Shown here piece after piece: positions 10,842 to 21,676 of a stretch of 21,676 bases of DNA. Under the pieces are notes generated by a model. It did not search any database. It was not told where the DNA came from and worked only from the letters and a program-made list of their open reading frames with translations. The stretch is from a virus: positions 1 through 21,676 of the IMG/VR virus record IMGVR_UViG_3300010883_000588, one strand, 5' to 3'. The position numbers and the translations under genes are program-made. Position 1 is the first letter of the stretch; every line of letters begins with the position of its first letter.

Positions 10842-13571
10842 ATGAGTATTAAAACAATTGACAAGCCAATGCATGGTAATACCGGCATTGCAAAGCGCAT
10901 CAATAAAGGCGCAGAGAAAATGGTTTTTGACATTCTTCAATCTACACAATATTCTATGCCAATTCAATCTACTGTAAGAGAACTTGTTACCAATGCATGT
11001 GACTCTCAACGTGAGAAAGAAATAGCTATAGAAATATTAAGTGGAAAAAAGAAAGCGTCAGACTACTACATTGAGCGCCACGGTGCTCAGTACGAAGACA
11101 GTAATTTTAATCCAAACTATTATGATTTAAAAGCATTACAGGGAGGAGATGAGATATTTTTAACATACACAAAAAATGAAGGTGTTGGATATTGTGATAC
11201 ATTTGCAGTTACTGACCATGGTGTAGGTATTGGAGCAAGACGATTAGAAGGTATATTGGAACTAGGTTATTCTACGAAAAGAAATACTAGTGAAAATTTT
11301 GGTGCCTTTGGTCTTGGTGCAAAAGCTGCACTATCAACTGGTGTAGATTTCTATACTATAGAGACTTCATACAATGGTAAGAGATTTAAATGTAACTGTT
11401 ATAACTACAAAACTGATTTTATTATACCTGCATTTAATGTAAAAGAAGGTAAAACTAATCCTTTTGTTACGTTCAGTGATGGAACCAAAGTATATTATGA
11501 AGAGACAGACAAACCAAATCAAACAACTGTATCTTTTGGTGTTAAGAAACATAATCGTAATAAGTTTGAAGAGTCAGTAGAAGAACAACTGTTGTATTTT
11601 AACAATGTTAACTTTAAAATTGTAGATAATGAAGATGATGGGTATGAAAGAAAAGTTAATTTTCAAGCAGAAGTAATATATAACTCTGATAATTTAATTA
11701 TTTCTGATTCATACTATTTTAATAAACCTCACATTGTGCTTGTTAAAGATAAAAAGTCTACAACAGGTATTAATTATGGGTATATTGATTTCAGGGAGCT
11801 AGAAATGGAACAGATGTACGGTTCTATTGCTTTTAAATGCCCAACACGGCAAGTTGTTGCTAATGAAGATGGAACTGAGACAGTATTACAAGAGGGTGTA
11901 GATGTTACTCCATCTCGTGAGAAAGTTATATGGAATGAAGCTACTAAAAAGTATATTAAAGGTATAATTACAGCTGCAGCAAAACAGGCTAGTGATTTGA
12001 TTCAGGAAGAGCTTAAAGAAACAGATTTCTTAAAGTGGATAGATAAATGTACAGCTATTATTACAAAAGGTTCAGACGACAATAGAGTTATAAATAGGCT
12101 AGCAAAAATTGTAGATAAAGACACAATTAAACCTAGTTTTGTTCCTGATCCTAGAATTAAATATGGTCCTGCTAGTAAGTTGTTTGAAGGTTTTAATCTT
12201 ATGGCTCCAAAAATGGTTGGTAATAAAATGGAAAGAGACCCGGTAAAAAGCTGGGGAGGACTTCAAGCTAAACATTTATATGCAAGAGAAGGTTCTTTTA
12301 ATAGATATAAAGATGCTTATCTTAGACAGCTAGATCAAGAATCTAAATGGGATCCAAATAAAGTTTGTACTTATACTTTAGAAGATTTAGACTCTAAGTT
12401 TGCAGAAGATATAAATAAAGCTAGTGGTGAAACTTTAGCTTGGCTTATGAAAGAAAAGAATAGAATTACAGCTAAACGTAGTGCTGTTCTTAAATTCATT
12501 GAGGCATCAGAGTGGTATAAAAACTATGATGATGTTGAAGTTCCAGAATCTTTTATTACAGACTCTAAGCTTGAAGAAAGCCAACAGGCAGAACTATCTA
12601 AGTTTACTAATTTATCAGCTGCAGATCGTAGAGCTATTGAAGAAAGAATGGTAGCATATACTCTTCGTTATGATGATAAAAAAGATAGCTTGTTTACTTT
12701 AGATAAGATTGAGCCAAAAGCTAAAGATCTTATGTCTAGTACAAATCGTATTTATTATTGTACATCAGAAGACGAACATAAAATGAGATCAGCTGCTTTA
12801 GCTTTATTTCATATAGTTCCTACACATAATAAAGTATATGAAAACAGCTATCAAGCATCTTATGATAAAAATCATAGTGAGCCGGTATTTTGGTACGAGC
12901 ATCCTCCTGTTAGGTACATGACGTATAATAAAGATAAGTATGAAGACTGGGCTATTCCTAAACAAGGATGGGATACCCCTCAACTTATACGTGTTAGTCA
13001 AGATAAAGTTAAACACATTATAAAAAACCCTAATGTTAGACACATTGATGAACTATTTTTACAATTAACTCCTAACAATGAATATACTATGGATCAATCT
13101 TTAATTAAATACTACACTGCATATAAACTCTCTAGAATAGAAGACTTTACATTTATGAAAGGTATGGGGTGTATTCACCCGGACCTTCAAAAAGACTATT
13201 GTGAGCTTTTAGACTTAAGGCTAGATCATTATTCTTATAGTAACAATCGTGTTATAGATACAGAAATTAAACTTTTTATGGATAAGCTTTATGATTTTCA
13301 ACTATTTTGTGCAATACCAAATATTGATGCTCAGGATGTTCAAGCTAAATCTAAAGAAATGTTTGTACTTTCTGATATACCTAACGCAAGAGCTGCAGAT
13401 TTAGATATACTAGCTAAATATGATAATTTAGTAGAATTTGCAGAAGAAATTGCACCTATGTTAAATTCAATTGAGTCTTTAAATAATAGGGAATGTGATA
13501 TGAGTTCTGCTTTAGAGAAAGAAATTAGAGTTTATTTAAGAGCAAAAAGTCGAGAAACATGGGAAAGCTAG
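10842..13571 (+). CDS. rIIA-like protein with GHKL (HSP90-type) ATPase domain
   Basis: This large protein (909 aa; T4 rIIA is about 725) has an N-terminal GHKL ATPase fold. It shows the N-box RELVTNACDSQ (E47, N51), the G1 box DHGVGIG (125-131) and the G2 box GAFGLGAKAAL (154-164). The middle includes the transducer-like segment TPSREKVIW. The C-terminal ~500 residues are helical and unassigned. Together with the rIIB-like gene at 14442 this matches the rIIA/rIIB pair of many lytic phages. In T4 the pair acts at the membrane in lysis inhibition and is required to overcome the lambda RexAB exclusion system. No transmembrane segment is seen. The gene overlaps the next by 13 bp. The GHKL assignment is firm; the rIIA name is based on size, domain and context. 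Confidence 0.85.
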   Translation: MSIKTIDKPMHGNTGIAKRINKGAEKMVFDILQSTQYSMPIQSTVRELVTNACDSQREKEIAIEILSGKKKASDYYIERHGAQYEDSNFNPNYYDLKALQGGDEIFLTYTKNEGVGYCDTFAVTDHGVGIGARRLEGILELGYSTKRNTSENFGAFGLGAKAALSTGVDFYTIETSYNGKRFKCNCYNYKTDFIIPAFNVKEGKTNPFVTFSDGTKVYYEETDKPNQTTVSFGVKKHNRNKFEESVEEQLLYFNNVNFKIVDNEDDGYERKVNFQAEVIYNSDNLIISDSYYFNKPHIVLVKDKKSTTGINYGYIDFRELEMEQMYGSIAFKCPTRQVVANEDGTETVLQEGVDVTPSREKVIWNEATKKYIKGIITAAAKQASDLIQEELKETDFLKWIDKCTAIITKGSDDNRVINRLAKIVDKDTIKPSFVPDPRIKYGPASKLFEGFNLMAPKMVGNKMERDPVKSWGGLQAKHLYAREGSFNRYKDAYLRQLDQESKWDPNKVCTYTLEDLDSKFAEDINKASGETLAWLMKEKNRITAKRSAVLKFIEASEWYKNYDDVEVPESFITDSKLEESQQAELSKFTNLSAADRRAIEERMVAYTLRYDDKKDSLFTLDKIEPKAKDLMSSTNRIYYCTSEDEHKMRSAALALFHIVPTHNKVYENSYQASYDKNHSEPVFWYEHPPVRYMTYNKDKYEDWAIPKQGWDTPQLIRVSQDKVKHIIKNPNVRHIDELFLQLTPNNEYTMDQSLIKYYTAYKLSRIEDFTFMKGMGCIHPDLQKDYCELLDLRLDHYSYSNNRVIDTEIKLFMDKLYDFQLFCAIPNIDAQDVQAKSKEMFVLSDIPNARAADLDILAKYDNLVEFAEEIAPMLNSIESLNNRECDMSSALEKEIRVYLRAKSRETWES

Positions 13572-14422
13572 TAACTAAAGATATAAGGAAGACCTTTAAA
13601 ATAAGAGCTTCTGGAAGATCTACAGATTTTATTTCTCCTAGTTTTGGTTATGGATGTTTGTATAACTGTTCATACTGTTATATGAAACGCCATAAAGATA
13701 AAGGTTTGTCTGTAGCTACAAATACAGGTGATATATTGACTTCGGTTAATAATCACGCGTATTTTACACCTGTAGACAAACCTAATCAGACTCACAAAAC
13801 TTTTACAACTTATGATATTAGCTGCAACGAGGATTTTGCGTTGCATGCTAAGCATCATGAGTGGCAAAGGATTTTTGAATTCTTTCGTGATCATCCTGTA
13901 GCAATGGGCAGTTTTGCAACTAAGTATGTAAATCCTAATCTTTGCTCTTTTGATCCTGAAGGTAAGATACGTATTAGATTTAGTCTAATGCCTCAACACA
14001 AATCAGATTTACACGAACCAGGTACAAGTAAGATACTCGATAGAATAAAAGCTATTGATGCCTTTATAGATGCAGGTTATGATGTACATGTAAACTATAG
14101 TCCTATCATTGTATATGATGGATGGTTAAAAGATTACAAATATCTGTTTGATATGATGAATGATTATGTCAGTTATAAAGAACAAGTTTTATCAGAATGT
14201 ATTTTTCTAACCCACAATTTTAAGAAGCACACTATAAATTTAGGTAGACACCCAGACACAGAAGTAGATCTTTGGGTTCTAGACAAACAAGAAGTGAAGC
14301 GCTCTCAATATGGAGGAGAAAACATAAGATACAAACTTGGAATAAAATCTGAATACATCAGACAATTTAGAGAATTACACCAAACAACAATACCTTGGAA
14401 CACAATAAGGTATATTTTTTAA
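13559..14422 (+). CDS. Radical SAM enzyme, spore photoproduct lyase (SplB)-like
   Basis: This 287-residue protein carries the radical SAM cluster motif CLYNCSYC (C33, C37, C40) followed by Y41. Further features match the spore photoproduct lyase family as I remember it: a downstream Cys in YDISCNEDF (C89) at the place of the H-atom-donating Cys of SplB, the block FATKY, RIRFSLMP then HEPGTSKILDRI, and SPIIVYDGW. SplB uses S-adenosylmethionine to reverse the thymine dimer 5-thyminyl-5,6-dihydrothymine in UV-damaged DNA. This protein is shorter than bacterial SplB (about 340), mainly at the N-terminus, with only 32 residues before the first cluster Cys. It starts inside the end of the rIIA-like gene and precedes rIIB. 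A related but distinct DNA-lesion or base-modifying reaction is possible. Confidence 0.85.
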   Translation: MGKLVTKDIRKTFKIRASGRSTDFISPSFGYGCLYNCSYCYMKRHKDKGLSVATNTGDILTSVNNHAYFTPVDKPNQTHKTFTTYDISCNEDFALHAKHHEWQRIFEFFRDHPVAMGSFATKYVNPNLCSFDPEGKIRIRFSLMPQHKSDLHEPGTSKILDRIKAIDAFIDAGYDVHVNYSPIIVYDGWLKDYKYLFDMMNDYVSYKEQVLSECIFLTHNFKKHTINLGRHPDTEVDLWVLDKQEVKRSQYGGENIRYKLGIKSEYIRQFRELHQTTIPWNTIRYIF

Positions 14423-14441: not shown

Positions 14442-15614
14442 ATGATTACAATAAATGTAATAGAAGACAAAATCTGTGGATCATACGGAGAAACTCCGTT
14501 CACAGTTGATTACAGTAAAGAACTGTATAATGATATGAGTGGGCTAGCAGAAGCTAGTGCAACAGTAAATACAGTAGAAGAATACAATGAAATATTAGAA
14601 GCATTTGCTCCTTTATGTGTTGTAGACTATACTAAAACCATTGAAACACAATGTGAGTACATTCACGTTAATAAGGCTACAGGAGAATTCTTTCTTAAGC
14701 ATAACAGCATAGTATCTTCGATACCAATGCCACAAGCGCTAGTAGACAGAATATTTGACTCTTTAGATAAAGAGTTAGACTTTATGCCTTTAATTAAGAT
14801 GTGGACTAGATGGTTACGTAACCCAATCTTGTGGAGAAAGATGAAGCAAGGTCACGGGGACGATTTCTGTACGCGATTCTTTAATTTTGTGAATATGAAA
14901 TATACTCACCCTAAAATAAAAGAAGATCTTATGGAACAAGGTCTTACTCATGAAGCAGCTTCTAAGAGAGCCGAGATGTACCAAATGAAAATCACCCATG
15001 AGGGATTACTAAATGGTTACAAGGTATCTAGAGAAGTGCTTCATAAGTATGATCAAGAAACTGGTGAACAAGTTGATCGTTATAAAAGAACGTTTAACAT
15101 TGACACCGGGGAAATAGAAGGGGATGGATTACCAGAGCATGTAGAAGATAGACTATTTGAACCAGCTATGATGGGGAGTAGTGGTGATGCTTTTTATTGT
15201 GAAGGTACTAATGGCTATGCTGATCCTCAACATTTTATTAAAGTTGGGTGTACACATAGATTAGAATCATGGGACCAAGTTAACGTTGACGATAGACGTT
15301 CATGTGTTAAAGGTTTACATGTAGGTGGTCTTATGTACATCAATTGCTATAGTGGAGAGATTCACAACATCTTTGTAGATCCTATGCATATCGGGGCTGT
15401 GCCTTGTGATGAAGACGGTGCTATTAGATGTAAGCAATATTTTGTTCATTCTTCCTTAGCAGGTGTGAATGGATCTATTTACCATAGCTCTAGCTATGCA
15501 GCTATGACAGACGCTGAATGGGATGATATGCGTGCGAAAGCAGTGCAAGAAAAATCTGAACGAAAAGCTCAGTGTGACAAGGAAGTTGCAGAAATTAATA
15601 GTCTCTGTAGCTAG
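14442..15614 (+). CDS. rIIB-like protein
   Basis: This 390-residue protein has the signature of the rIIB-like family. The central part has a helical segment (LIKMWTRWLRNPILWRKM), an FFNFVNM stretch and THEGLLNGYKV (185-195), followed by a variable loop. The VDDRRSCVKGLHVG block (282-295) then leads into VDPMHIGAVPCDEDGAIRCK. The 'VDD-R-x-C-x-x-GLHVG' block is the most recognisable. In T4, rIIB works with rIIA in lysis control and in resistance to host exclusion. The C-terminal tail is helical and charged. It is separated from the rIIA-like gene by the SplB-like gene, which is unusual. The family call is from remembered motifs, not a search. Confidence 0.75.
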   Translation: MITINVIEDKICGSYGETPFTVDYSKELYNDMSGLAEASATVNTVEEYNEILEAFAPLCVVDYTKTIETQCEYIHVNKATGEFFLKHNSIVSSIPMPQALVDRIFDSLDKELDFMPLIKMWTRWLRNPILWRKMKQGHGDDFCTRFFNFVNMKYTHPKIKEDLMEQGLTHEAASKRAEMYQMKITHEGLLNGYKVSREVLHKYDQETGEQVDRYKRTFNIDTGEIEGDGLPEHVEDRLFEPAMMGSSGDAFYCEGTNGYADPQHFIKVGCTHRLESWDQVNVDDRRSCVKGLHVGGLMYINCYSGEIHNIFVDPMHIGAVPCDEDGAIRCKQYFVHSSLAGVNGSIYHSSSYAAMTDAEWDDMRAKAVQEKSERKAQCDKEVAEINSLCS

Positions 15615-17740: not shown

Positions 17741-20700
17741 TTAATCTAGTGTTGTAAACCACTTATATGCATCTTGTGGTGTTTTTGATTTATTTATACC
17801 TCTAAATATAGGTAGTAAATCTTCAAAATCTTTTTTGATTTTTCTATCACCTTTCTTAAATCTACCAGTTTTTCTTTGATAAAATACATCTTTTTGATCT
17901 CCTAAACCTATTGCATACGCACCTTCACTTAGTATTTGTCCTAATAATTCTCCTCCTTTTAGTATAGGCCTTGCAGTTGCTGTTGGAGATTGTAAAATTC
18001 TAAAGGCTTCTTTACTCCCTACTAGTGGCGTCCACTGCATAATTTCTGTTTCATATCTTTTAGCTTGATACAATGCAAAATTAGATAGCCACGTTTCATC
18101 CTCATCATCAAGATCTGCTAATGCTGCTACTAAAACCATAGCTCCTATTAGAGATGATAATTCTACTGCAGTTCTTTTAATATTTTGTTGTTCCATTTCA
18201 GTCATCTTACCATATGCAAATGATCCTTCTGATATACTTTCTTGGATAAGATTCCAAAAAGATATATACATACCTTGAGTTAAAACACCCATTTCTTCAT
18301 CTACATGTACTGTAGAACTACCTCCGTGTCCGTATCTTCTCCTAATTCCAGATGGCAGCCAGTTACGGAAAAGCATAAATAACTTACCATACCATCTTCT
18401 ACTTAGCATGTTAGTATGCATTTTACTTTTTATCTGATTAGTTCTTCTAGATAACCCTTGTAGTTTAGTGATAAAATCTAATCTATTAAACTCTGAATTC
18501 TTTTCATCTATTCTAGAATCTAAAGACATTTTACCTGTCTTTTCATTTATAACTAATAAATCATACAAATTAGTAGGCTTACCGTCTTCAGTAAGGATAA
18601 CATTACCATCACCGTCTTTAAAAGTACCTTCTAAATTTTTCATTAAAGCTAACATTCTTGTAGCAGATAGCTCATGTTCTGCAGCTTGTTGTAAAAATAA
18701 TAAATTACCACTTCTAGCAAATTTCCTAACTTTACCCCCAACAATTTGATTACCTTCAGTATCTGTAAATTCTGTTAAAGCATCAAAGAATTCTACAGCT
18801 TTACCAATTTTACTTTTAGGATCAAACCTACCTATATCTGTTACGGCCATCCCTGAGCCCCAGTACTCTCCTTTACCCCACGCAATATCTGATTTATTCA
18901 TAAATTGTCCTGCAAATCCTTCTTGTAGCATCATCATGTTGTCAAGAATAGACTGATTTGCTCCTTGTAGTAAATTAAAAGATAAAGTACTCATTGCTGT
19001 AAAAGCATTTAAAGTAGAAACACCTTCATTAGCTGAAAAAGTTTTACCAAATACTGTAAAATCTTGTTTTAAATTGCTTTGCCCATACATTATAGAGTCT
19101 AACCACTCATTAACATGTTTATAATTATTACTTTCTCCTTCTTTAAGCTTAGGCATAGAAATACCCATAGAAGCAGCTGCTTTTTGTATGAGCTGTATAT
19201 TTGCTGAGTTAGTTTCTAATGTTGGTCTATTTTTTAATACTTGTCTAAAGAAATTAACCTGACCAACAATTTCACTTTTACTTTTAAAATTGTGTGCCAT
19301 GTGCCTAAACCTGTATAAACTACTAGCAATATCTTTAGATACTTCTTTTGAAGCAACTCTATTTACTGCATAAACTGGAACTCTTTTATCTACATCTCTA
19401 TTATTTTCATTAAATGTATAATAATCATGATTAGTTTCTTGAATAGTAAAAGAATCTGACAGTGTGTCTTTAGCTGTATTGTAAAGACCTTTTTCTTTTA
19501 ATCTATCAATGTCTTCTTTTCTATACGTTGGCATTAAATAAGAATATTTATCCCAGTTATTCTTTTCCATTTGTTTAAGACCAATCATTCTTTGAGCAAC
19601 TTGAAATTCTTGTATCACAAAATCATAGTAAGCTTTTAGCGCTGGATCATTTTGTATTGCTTCATATTTAGCATTTTTATATACTTCCGGATTAGGTTGA
19701 ACCCAATCACCTGCCGCTTTGTTATTTATTAAGTTTCTTTTTAAAACTTTTTCTAGTTGATTTTTACGTATCCTAGCATTAGACAAAGCTTCTGTATTTA
19801 GTTCTTTTGCTCCTTTTAATTCTACAATAATTTTACTTTGTGTTTTCATCTCAGCCTTAATACTGTCTCTTTCTTTTTCCCATCCTGGGACCGGTTTAGT
19901 ATTTGCTTGATTCCATTTTAATAATTCAAGTCTATATCTTCCTCCTTTAGACTCTGTATTTCCCCATCTTTGTAGTGCTTTTTGAAATAAAGTATAATCT
20001 TCATTATAATCTTCTTTTTTTGGTATACCGTGTTTATCTCCTAATCTTTCCTTTTCTTGTTTTAGCTCTGAATAATATTTTTCACTATCAATTGGATTTA
20101 CAAGGCCTAATCTTTTCATTCCATTTATAGTAACTTCTTCTAAGAATGGATCATTTAATCTTTCAACATCTGACTCGTTTTTACCCTCTGCCATAGCTTC
20201 ATACGCAGGCGCTAACTTAGATTTTAAATCTAAAGTCATATCATTTGATTCAAGATTAGCTTTTTGAACTGCTTTAACTAACAGTTGTATACCTCTATCA
20301 CTAGAATAAGCAATTGGGTCAAAGTAATAAGAGTATGCGCTCTTGTCTTTATGTGCGGCTGTTAGCTCTGATACTAAATCTTTATAGTTTAAAAGTTGTT
20401 TTTGTTTAAATTGTTCAACATTCAATTTTACTTTTTTTGCTGTAAATTCTTCTTCAGTAATTCTCCCTACTTTTAAATCTTTTTGTAATTCTAAGTATGC
20501 TAAGTCTGTAGTGTCTAATCCAATTGTTCTTTGGTTTTTAACCATGTTATCAATCTGAGCTTGTATTTCTTTTGGTATGTTTTTATTTGTTAGCCCTATC
20601 ATAGACTGCGCTAACATAGGTACAACATCATCAACAAACGCCTTGTCTAAAGACTCTGCTCGATCTAATATTTCATTTACTCTGTCTTCTAAATTAGTAA

Positions 20701-21676
20701 AAGCCTCAAAAGAGTCCATTTCTGACATAAAGCTTTTATCTTTATTAAAAGCTTTTCTTTTTTTAGAAAGTAATAAAGATTTTATACTTTGAAACATTTC
20801 TAAACTATCAAGTTGTTTCTTTAAAGCCCACATAGTATTTAAATTCTGTGTTGTTCCTCTTTCCTCTTCAGGTAAGCGCATAAGCTCTTCATATCTAGCT
20901 TCTGTTCTAGTTAGAGCTCCAGCCATTGCATCTACAAGTTTAAATAAGTCTTCTACTTTTTCTACTTTAGTTAAACTGCTTTCTAATCTTAATAGTGTTA
21001 CTTTTTGTTCTTCATCTATCTGATCTTCAGGTAACAGGTTTAAATCATATAGCTCTGAATTAATTCTAACTCTTGCATTATCAACTAGTTCTTGTAACCT
21101 TACTTGGTCTTTACTAGCTTGTGTGTAACTACTTAGACTCTTAATCATACTTGTGCTTCTTAGCTCCTGAGCAAACATTTCTTCTGCAAGCACTGCAGCT
21201 GTGTTTGGTGTAACGCCAAATATATTACCAATAGCTCTCATTATTCTATTGATTATTCTTTGTAGTTTATTAGGGTTTTTCCTAGTAATTTTAGCTCCTT
21301 CTAACCCGATGGCCGTGGCTAATACTTCTTTGTCTAGCATTTCCCCTAATAATTCTGGATACGCTTGTTCTACTTGCGCATAAAGTGGTGTTTCTTGTAA
21401 CTCAAGAATTGCTTTAGCAACTACAGGGTTGTCTACTCCTAATAAATCTATGTAAATATGCCCAAATTCATGGTATGTTGTATCTTTTTTAACTTTCTCA
21501 GGATTAATTCTTATAGTTGGATTTTCACCCTCTATAGCAGGATCTACTTGCCCTATATTATCTATACTGCTATCAAATTCTACATTAACAGTAATACCAG
21601 CTTTAGCAAATGACTCTATTAAATGCCCAGATACTTTATATGCATTTTTAAGTTCTTCTTTTTCAAGATTAGAAAA
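17741..21676 (-). CDS. Giant virion-associated (polyvalent/ejected) protein with N-terminal zincin motif, partial
   Basis: The frame is open without a stop to the right edge, giving at least 1311 codons, so the start lies outside the window; the internal ATG at 21340 would cut the first domain. Near the visible N-terminus, TTYHEFGHIYIDLLG holds an HExxH zinc site (21458-21472). It is followed about 40 residues later by DKEVLATAIG, whose Glu could be the third ligand, as in gluzincin-type metallopeptidases of phage polyvalent proteins. The body is long, helical and charged, with coiled-coil-like stretches. A conserved-looking block (YRFRHMAHNFKSKSEI) and a basic aromatic RNWLPSGIRRRYG segment occur later. 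Near the C-terminus a hydrophobic run (about 18110-18165) precedes DLDDEDETW. This fits giant proteins packaged in virions and ejected with DNA in crAss-like and related phages. The virion role is inferred. Confidence 0.7.
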   Translation of the reverse strand, partial: FSNLEKEELKNAYKVSGHLIESFAKAGITVNVEFDSSIDNIGQVDPAIEGENPTIRINPEKVKKDTTYHEFGHIYIDLLGVDNPVVAKAILELQETPLYAQVEQAYPELLGEMLDKEVLATAIGLEGAKITRKNPNKLQRIINRIMRAIGNIFGVTPNTAAVLAEEMFAQELRSTSMIKSLSSYTQASKDQVRLQELVDNARVRINSELYDLNLLPEDQIDEEQKVTLLRLESSLTKVEKVEDLFKLVDAMAGALTRTEARYEELMRLPEEERGTTQNLNTMWALKKQLDSLEMFQSIKSLLLSKKRKAFNKDKSFMSEMDSFEAFTNLEDRVNEILDRAESLDKAFVDDVVPMLAQSMIGLTNKNIPKEIQAQIDNMVKNQRTIGLDTTDLAYLELQKDLKVGRITEEEFTAKKVKLNVEQFKQKQLLNYKDLVSELTAAHKDKSAYSYYFDPIAYSSDRGIQLLVKAVQKANLESNDMTLDLKSKLAPAYEAMAEGKNESDVERLNDPFLEEVTINGMKRLGLVNPIDSEKYYSELKQEKERLGDKHGIPKKEDYNEDYTLFQKALQRWGNTESKGGRYRLELLKWNQANTKPVPGWEKERDSIKAEMKTQSKIIVELKGAKELNTEALSNARIRKNQLEKVLKRNLINNKAAGDWVQPNPEVYKNAKYEAIQNDPALKAYYDFVIQEFQVAQRMIGLKQMEKNNWDKYSYLMPTYRKEDIDRLKEKGLYNTAKDTLSDSFTIQETNHDYYTFNENNRDVDKRVPVYAVNRVASKEVSKDIASSLYRFRHMAHNFKSKSEIVGQVNFFRQVLKNRPTLETNSANIQLIQKAAASMGISMPKLKEGESNNYKHVNEWLDSIMYGQSNLKQDFTVFGKTFSANEGVSTLNAFTAMSTLSFNLLQGANQSILDNMMMLQEGFAGQFMNKSDIAWGKGEYWGSGMAVTDIGRFDPKSKIGKAVEFFDALTEFTDTEGNQIVGGKVRKFARSGNLLFLQQAAEHELSATRMLALMKNLEGTFKDGDGNVILTEDGKPTNLYDLLVINEKTGKMSLDSRIDEKNSEFNRLDFITKLQGLSRRTNQIKSKMHTNMLSRRWYGKLFMLFRNWLPSGIRRRYGHGGSSTVHVDEEMGVLTQGMYISFWNLIQESISEGSFAYGKMTEMEQQNIKRTAVELSSLIGAMVLVAALADLDDEDETWLSNFALYQAKRYETEIMQWTPLVGSKEAFRILQSPTATARPILKGGELLGQILSEGAYAIGLGDQKDVFYQRKTGRFKKGDRKIKKDFEDLLPIFRGINKSKTPQDAYKWFTTLD

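Follow-up and report, generated by a model that had tools for sequence, protein, structure and literature searches.

A short cysteine-retaining branch of the spore photoproduct lyase family carried by crAss-like phages

We found that crAss-like phages of IMG/VR, known only from environmental sequence, carry a short branch of the spore photoproduct lyase (SPL) family in which the Cys and Tyr relay of SplB is retained. The phage protein most likely reverses directly a UV-made bi-thymine lesion in the DNA of the phage, and perhaps of its host, a reading to which we assign a probability of about 0.6. The gene came to attention in a stretch of viral DNA of 21,676 nucleotides (IMG/VR record IMGVR_UViG_3300010883_000588), hereafter the window.

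Results

Genomic context, family and predicted fold

The SPL gene of the window is an intact ORF of 287 aa that runs from ATG to TAA. Its first 13 bp (13559-13571) are shared with the end of the rIIA-like gene, and a gap of 19 bp separates its stop codon from the ATG of the rIIB-like gene. A phage-borne radical SAM gene of the SPL family flanked by rIIA-like and rIIB-like genes, as described by the first-pass annotation, was borne out.

10842..13571, + strand: rIIA-like gene (GHKL ATPase; phrog_612, 4e-17)
13559..14422, + strand: SPL-family radical SAM gene of the short Cys-type branch, 287 aa (ORF, HMM, structure match and tree)
14442..15614, + strand: rIIB-like gene (phrog_609, 6.5e-8)

Elsewhere in the window, neither Pfam nor PHROG gave a match, within the limits applied, for a protein of 1199 aa encoded on the minus strand (17741-21340).

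The ORF is genuine and belongs to the Pfam SPL family PF20903, which it matches over residues 8-286 with 94.4 bits (E 8.1e-27), above the curated cut-off of 27 bits. The match to TIGR03886 (lyase_spl_fam) reached 309.9 bits (E 2.2e-92), below the curated cut-off of 437.55; it spans residues 9-287, and the phage protein lacks residues corresponding to the first 61 positions of the model. TIGR03886 comprises SPL-family proteins, mostly of non-spore-formers, and no substrate is named in the model descriptions. The SplB model TIGR04070 gave 84.1 bits, below its curated cut-off of 400 bits. Among solved structures, a phmmer search matched the SPL of G. thermodenitrificans at 1e-15. The proposed likeness to SplB also extends to the predicted structure: the AlphaFold model, built from 42 window and locus sequences (mean pLDDT 90.6, pTM 0.89), has the SPL fold, with the best six PDB matches all being G. 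thermodenitrificans SPL (TM 0.86-0.87) and the next one the pyruvate formate-lyase activating enzyme (TM 0.55).

Conservation of the catalytic residues

The catalytic residues and sequence blocks lie at the following positions.

13655..13681, + strand: [4Fe-4S]/SAM motif C33-x3-C37-S-Y39-C40-Y41, invariant by alignment in every SPL group sampled
13823..13825, + strand: C89, in the alignment column of the H-atom donor (C141 in B. subtilis SplB, C140 in G. thermodenitrificans)
13829..13831, + strand: E91, placed by alignment with SplB and cellular relatives
14012..14029, + strand: HEPGTS block, residues 152-157, matching EPGTS of SplB
14102..14125, + strand: PIIVYDGW block, residues 182-189, with P182 and W189 conserved across SPL groups
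14288..14332, + strand: predicted beta-hairpin with strands at 244-248 and 254-258, corresponding in the alignment to K302-Y313 of SplB

All the elements that the first-pass annotation had named (C33, C37, C40, Y41, C89, HEPGTS and PIIVYDGW) are present in the ORF, and their correspondence to SplB held in the alignments. C33, C37 and C40 fall on C90, C94 and C97 of G. thermodenitrificans SPL, and C89 on C140, in the phmmer alignment; Y41 and the previously unnamed Y39 align with Y99 and Y97 of B. subtilis SplB. The reduced N-terminal region was also correctly recognised, as about 60-70 N-terminal residues of cellular SPLs are absent from the phage protein.

C89 is kept in 143 of 143 viral loci read, repeat fetches of the same contigs included, within the motif TYDISCNEDF in 142 of them and with a final Tyr in one. 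The catalytic Cys also occurs in SplB, SplB-like paralogues, the long forms of Bacteroidota and the short bacterial forms. Its column holds Glu (VYDIGEN) in the TIGR03886 proteins of Actinobacteria, Methylobacteria and Deinococcus, and in most TIGR03886 proteins sampled. Glu in place of the catalytic Cys despite an SPL-family annotation was seen in loci L145 and L146 and in most loci of Actinobacteria and Methylobacteria. The column of E91 contains Glu in the phage proteins, Ser or Thr in SplB and the other Cys-keeping groups, and Ser or Gly in the Glu-type proteins.

Phylogeny and relatives

In a tree of 55 SPL-family proteins, the SplB-like group was separated from the rest with support of 100/100, and the phage proteins fell on the TIGR03886 side. 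They form one clade (97/99) of short proteins with 284-287 aa among the branches keeping the catalytic Cys, with the short bacterial forms as its sister (94/86); the Glu-type proteins form another clade (100/100). The distribution of Cys and Glu needs one state change on this tree, and loss of Cys in the Glu branch would be the simpler reading because the SplB outgroup has Cys.

The view of the phage enzyme as an SplB did not survive this analysis, which placed it in a deep sister group around TIGR03886 (100/100). A phage copy of SplB is ruled out by this split and by the 84.1 bits with TIGR04070 against 309.9 with TIGR03886. The first-pass annotation had regarded closer similarity to another radical SAM family with a different substrate as evidence against its reading; the phage protein is indeed closer to another family, TIGR03886, of the same superfamily branch, but not to one with a known different substrate.

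SplB (TIGR04070; PDB 4fhc and 4fhd) resembles the phage protein in its fold, the CX3CX2C motif, Y39/Y41, C89, the EPGTS and P-x-GW blocks and the predicted beta-hairpin. The phage protein differs from it in its about 22-29% identity, the lack of the N-terminal 60-70 or so residues, E91 instead of Ser, and the separate clade. The Glu-type TIGR03886 proteins of Actinobacteria, Methylobacteria and Deinococcus share the same side of the deep split and about 40-45% identity with the phage SPL, but carry Glu in the column of the catalytic Cys and, with the N-terminal region, measure about 350 aa. Bacteroidota Cys-type proteins (Rufibacter, Spirosoma, Adhaeribacter), on the same side, have TYDIGCNSD at the catalytic Cys and 45-50% identity, whereas they are chromosomal, comprise about 345 aa with the N-terminal region, and several stand beside a second SplB-like paralogue. 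The nearest sister group, the short bacterial forms (Paracaedibacteraceae, Cesiribacter and a Burkholderiales MAG), has 291-293 aa and retains the catalytic Cys, but shows an unusual CX3C-X4-C cluster spacing, and no phage genes were noticed nearby. This motif (GCAGGCRNSYCYVM), two residues above the usual CX3CX2C, was read in L158 (4848-5723), L159 (5001-5876), L163 (2121-2996), L180 (4974-5852) and L241. In L160, L161, L172, L176, L232, L233 and L155, a Cys-type or Glu-type SPL-family gene adjoins a second SplB-like paralogue. Two contigs binned as Rickettsiales (L157) and Bacteroidetes (L156), read by eye, were treated as phage contigs because of the phage genes around SPL, namely a rIIA-like gene (blastp to phage rIIA, 1e-12) and a DnaB-like ORF.

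Phages carrying the gene

The window is a 21.7 kb fragment without the crAss-type major capsid protein, and crAss-like phages are among the best INPHARED matches of its PolA. An 89 kb contig (G009), which has rIIA/SPL/rIIB and replication genes in common with the window, carries genes for a terminase and a crAss-type capsid protein (PF23898, 1.3e-78). In another subgroup, represented by a 120 kb contig (G008) encoding crAss-type capsid and portal proteins, a PolB-like gene replaces PolA at the SPL locus. A GroEL-like gene, recognised by eye from its N-terminal sequence, lies near SPL in this polB-bearing subgroup (L073, 10837-12450; L269, 5036-6655). To judge by their sample numbers, most of the SPL-bearing IMG/VR contigs may be marine. 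The crAss-type capsid protein is matched by 127 INPHARED records, and tblastn searches of 50,697 INPHARED records with phage, SplB and Bacteroidota proteins as queries found no close SPL homologue, the only SPL-like matches being weak and distant ones in two faecal scaffolds. The Bacteroidota long form gave no pattern match in viral contigs, and we found no phage or crAss-like SPL in the literature searched.

Position and selection

We surveyed the position of the gene in 100 distinct viral loci. SPL lies between rIIA and rIIB in 30 of them and in 4 more seen from one side, and in about 38 it stands ahead of a DUF2201 metallopeptidase/VWA cassette that occupies the place of rIIAB in the window. 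The remaining loci use four or more other sites: dnaB|sak4, 150 aa ORF|polB, upstream of a 276 aa ORF, downstream of polA, and others. There are at least six insertion sites in all, and rIIA|rIIB belongs to the two most frequent. In L027 (6864-10271) and similar loci, two genes without assignment come after the DUF2201 metallopeptidase/VWA gene, the start of one of them resembling a P-loop, and this three-gene cassette stands at the rIIA/rIIB place of the window's group. Among close relatives of the window phage, rIIA and rIIB are adjacent in L285, with no SPL on its 93 kb contig, in L282, with SPL just upstream of rIIA, and in L290, with SPL at dnaB|sak4. An insertion between two normally adjacent genes was therefore the right description for the window phage, but the placement, called unusual in the first-pass annotation, is not special, being found in about 34 of the 100 loci. 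Different phage lineages retain the gene at changing positions, and rIIA|rIIB is one state among several. At most loci it directly follows the upstream gene, often overlapping it, in the early/replication region. The GC content of viral SPL is 0.33, like that of neighbouring genes. In the comparison with L002, dS was about 1.0 for the tested flanking genes and 0.18-0.32 for rIIA, SPL and rIIB, so that the rIIA-SPL-rIIB block may have been swapped between phages.

Pairwise dN/dS was 0.06-0.09 for SPL, 0.21-0.27 for rIIA and 0.08-0.21 for rIIB; SPL is under strong purifying selection. Together with 524 homologous stretches in IMG/VR, the SPL values place the ORF of the window far beyond chance. 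The variable position and the lack of the gene in some relatives could be taken as signs of a passenger of no current use to the phage, but the low dN/dS, the hundreds of occurrences and the Cys motif common to all viral copies in the 143 loci make this most improbable, and we reject it on dN/dS.

Discussion

Proposed function and its alternatives

By analogy with SplB, a [4Fe-4S] cluster on C33, C37 and C40 would cleave SAM, and the resulting 5'-deoxyadenosyl radical would abstract a hydrogen from the lesion, whose cross-link would then fragment; the thymine radical would receive a hydrogen from C89, and the radical would pass back to SAM by way of Y41 together with Y39. The Cys and Tyr are required in SplB chemistry (PMC3742179; PMC5368176). 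Since the phage protein has this relay intact, and the part that the relay plays is documented, direct reversal of a thymine lesion made by UV has the best support; the activity, DNA as the substrate and a thymine photoproduct as the lesion are inferences. The location of SPL next to replication genes (dnaB|sak4, 150 aa ORF|polB and after polA) also counts for repair. SPL-family genes outside spore-formers are tied to DNA damage by predicted LexA control in alpha- and beta-proteobacteria (PMC3323433), by a described splB homologue in two desert Deinococcus species that is absent from two others (PMC3314630), and by a photolyase gene adjoining the SPL-family gene of Streptomyces NBC_00184, the only such neighbour in a targeted search of bacterial copies. 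The plasmid copies of D. gobiensis and D. deserti are Glu-type. An all-against-all BLAST of ORFs for recurrent neighbours of the bacterial copies was dominated by spurious ORFs in GC-rich DNA. No photolyase (PF03441) was found in 16 large SPL-phage contigs, which may be incomplete. Against lesion reversal stand the position outside the SplB branch, E91 in place of Ser/Thr near the catalytic Cys, the absent N-terminal residues, and the fact that we found no member of its own branch with a tested substrate. The chemistry of the wider group may have drifted, as many of its proteins are without the catalytic Cys.

Spore photoproduct is the leading candidate for the lesion. Packed phage DNA is mainly B-form. 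Spore photoproduct is not seen in the hydrated DNA of other cell types, and in a marine Vibrio phage the decay of infectivity tracked the formation of CPD-type dimers (PMC3231322). In view of the B-form of packed DNA and the hydrated-DNA statement, spore photoproduct may or may not be a substrate of the phage enzyme, and formation of this lesion in virions is doubtful for hydrated DNA. Its unexpectedness in water, along with the deep split from SplB, E91 and the shorter N terminus, would fit SPL-like chemistry on a different lesion or polymer, such as RNA or a non-thymine photoproduct. We consider this unlikely, given that every known relay residue is retained and that the structural match to SPL is close. 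More broadly, the phage clade might represent a distinct SPL-family enzyme, carried by phages, that acts on a substrate of its own; this would be some lesion or base different from classical spore photoproduct. We regard this as a tentative possibility.

Hypermodified thymidine occurs in phages, some of which make it with radical SAM enzymes, and the phage SPL branch has no assigned substrate and differs in one residue beside the catalytic Cys. Modification of an undamaged base rather than lesion repair could accordingly be envisaged. It appears quite improbable, because nothing is missing from the Cys/Tyr relay used in lesion reversal, some close relatives have no SPL, which would be odd for an enzyme setting genome-wide chemistry, and neither a thymidylate-synthase homologue (PF00303, the dUMP hydroxymethylase family) nor ThyX (PF02511) was found in the 16 large, maybe incomplete, SPL-phage contigs.

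Implications

SPL is known from spores, where its lesion forms in dry DNA. A phage branch that is widespread, strongly conserved and equipped with the whole relay points to a use for SPL-type chemistry beyond spores. The annotation 'spore photoproduct lyase family' needs care, as many proteins bearing it, including those encoded by the D. gobiensis and D. deserti plasmids, are without the catalytic Cys. The phage protein, small and soluble-looking, offers a direct test case for the role of SPL relatives outside spores. If it does have its own substrate, viruses of sunlit water would keep a direct-reversal UV repair chemistry so far undescribed.
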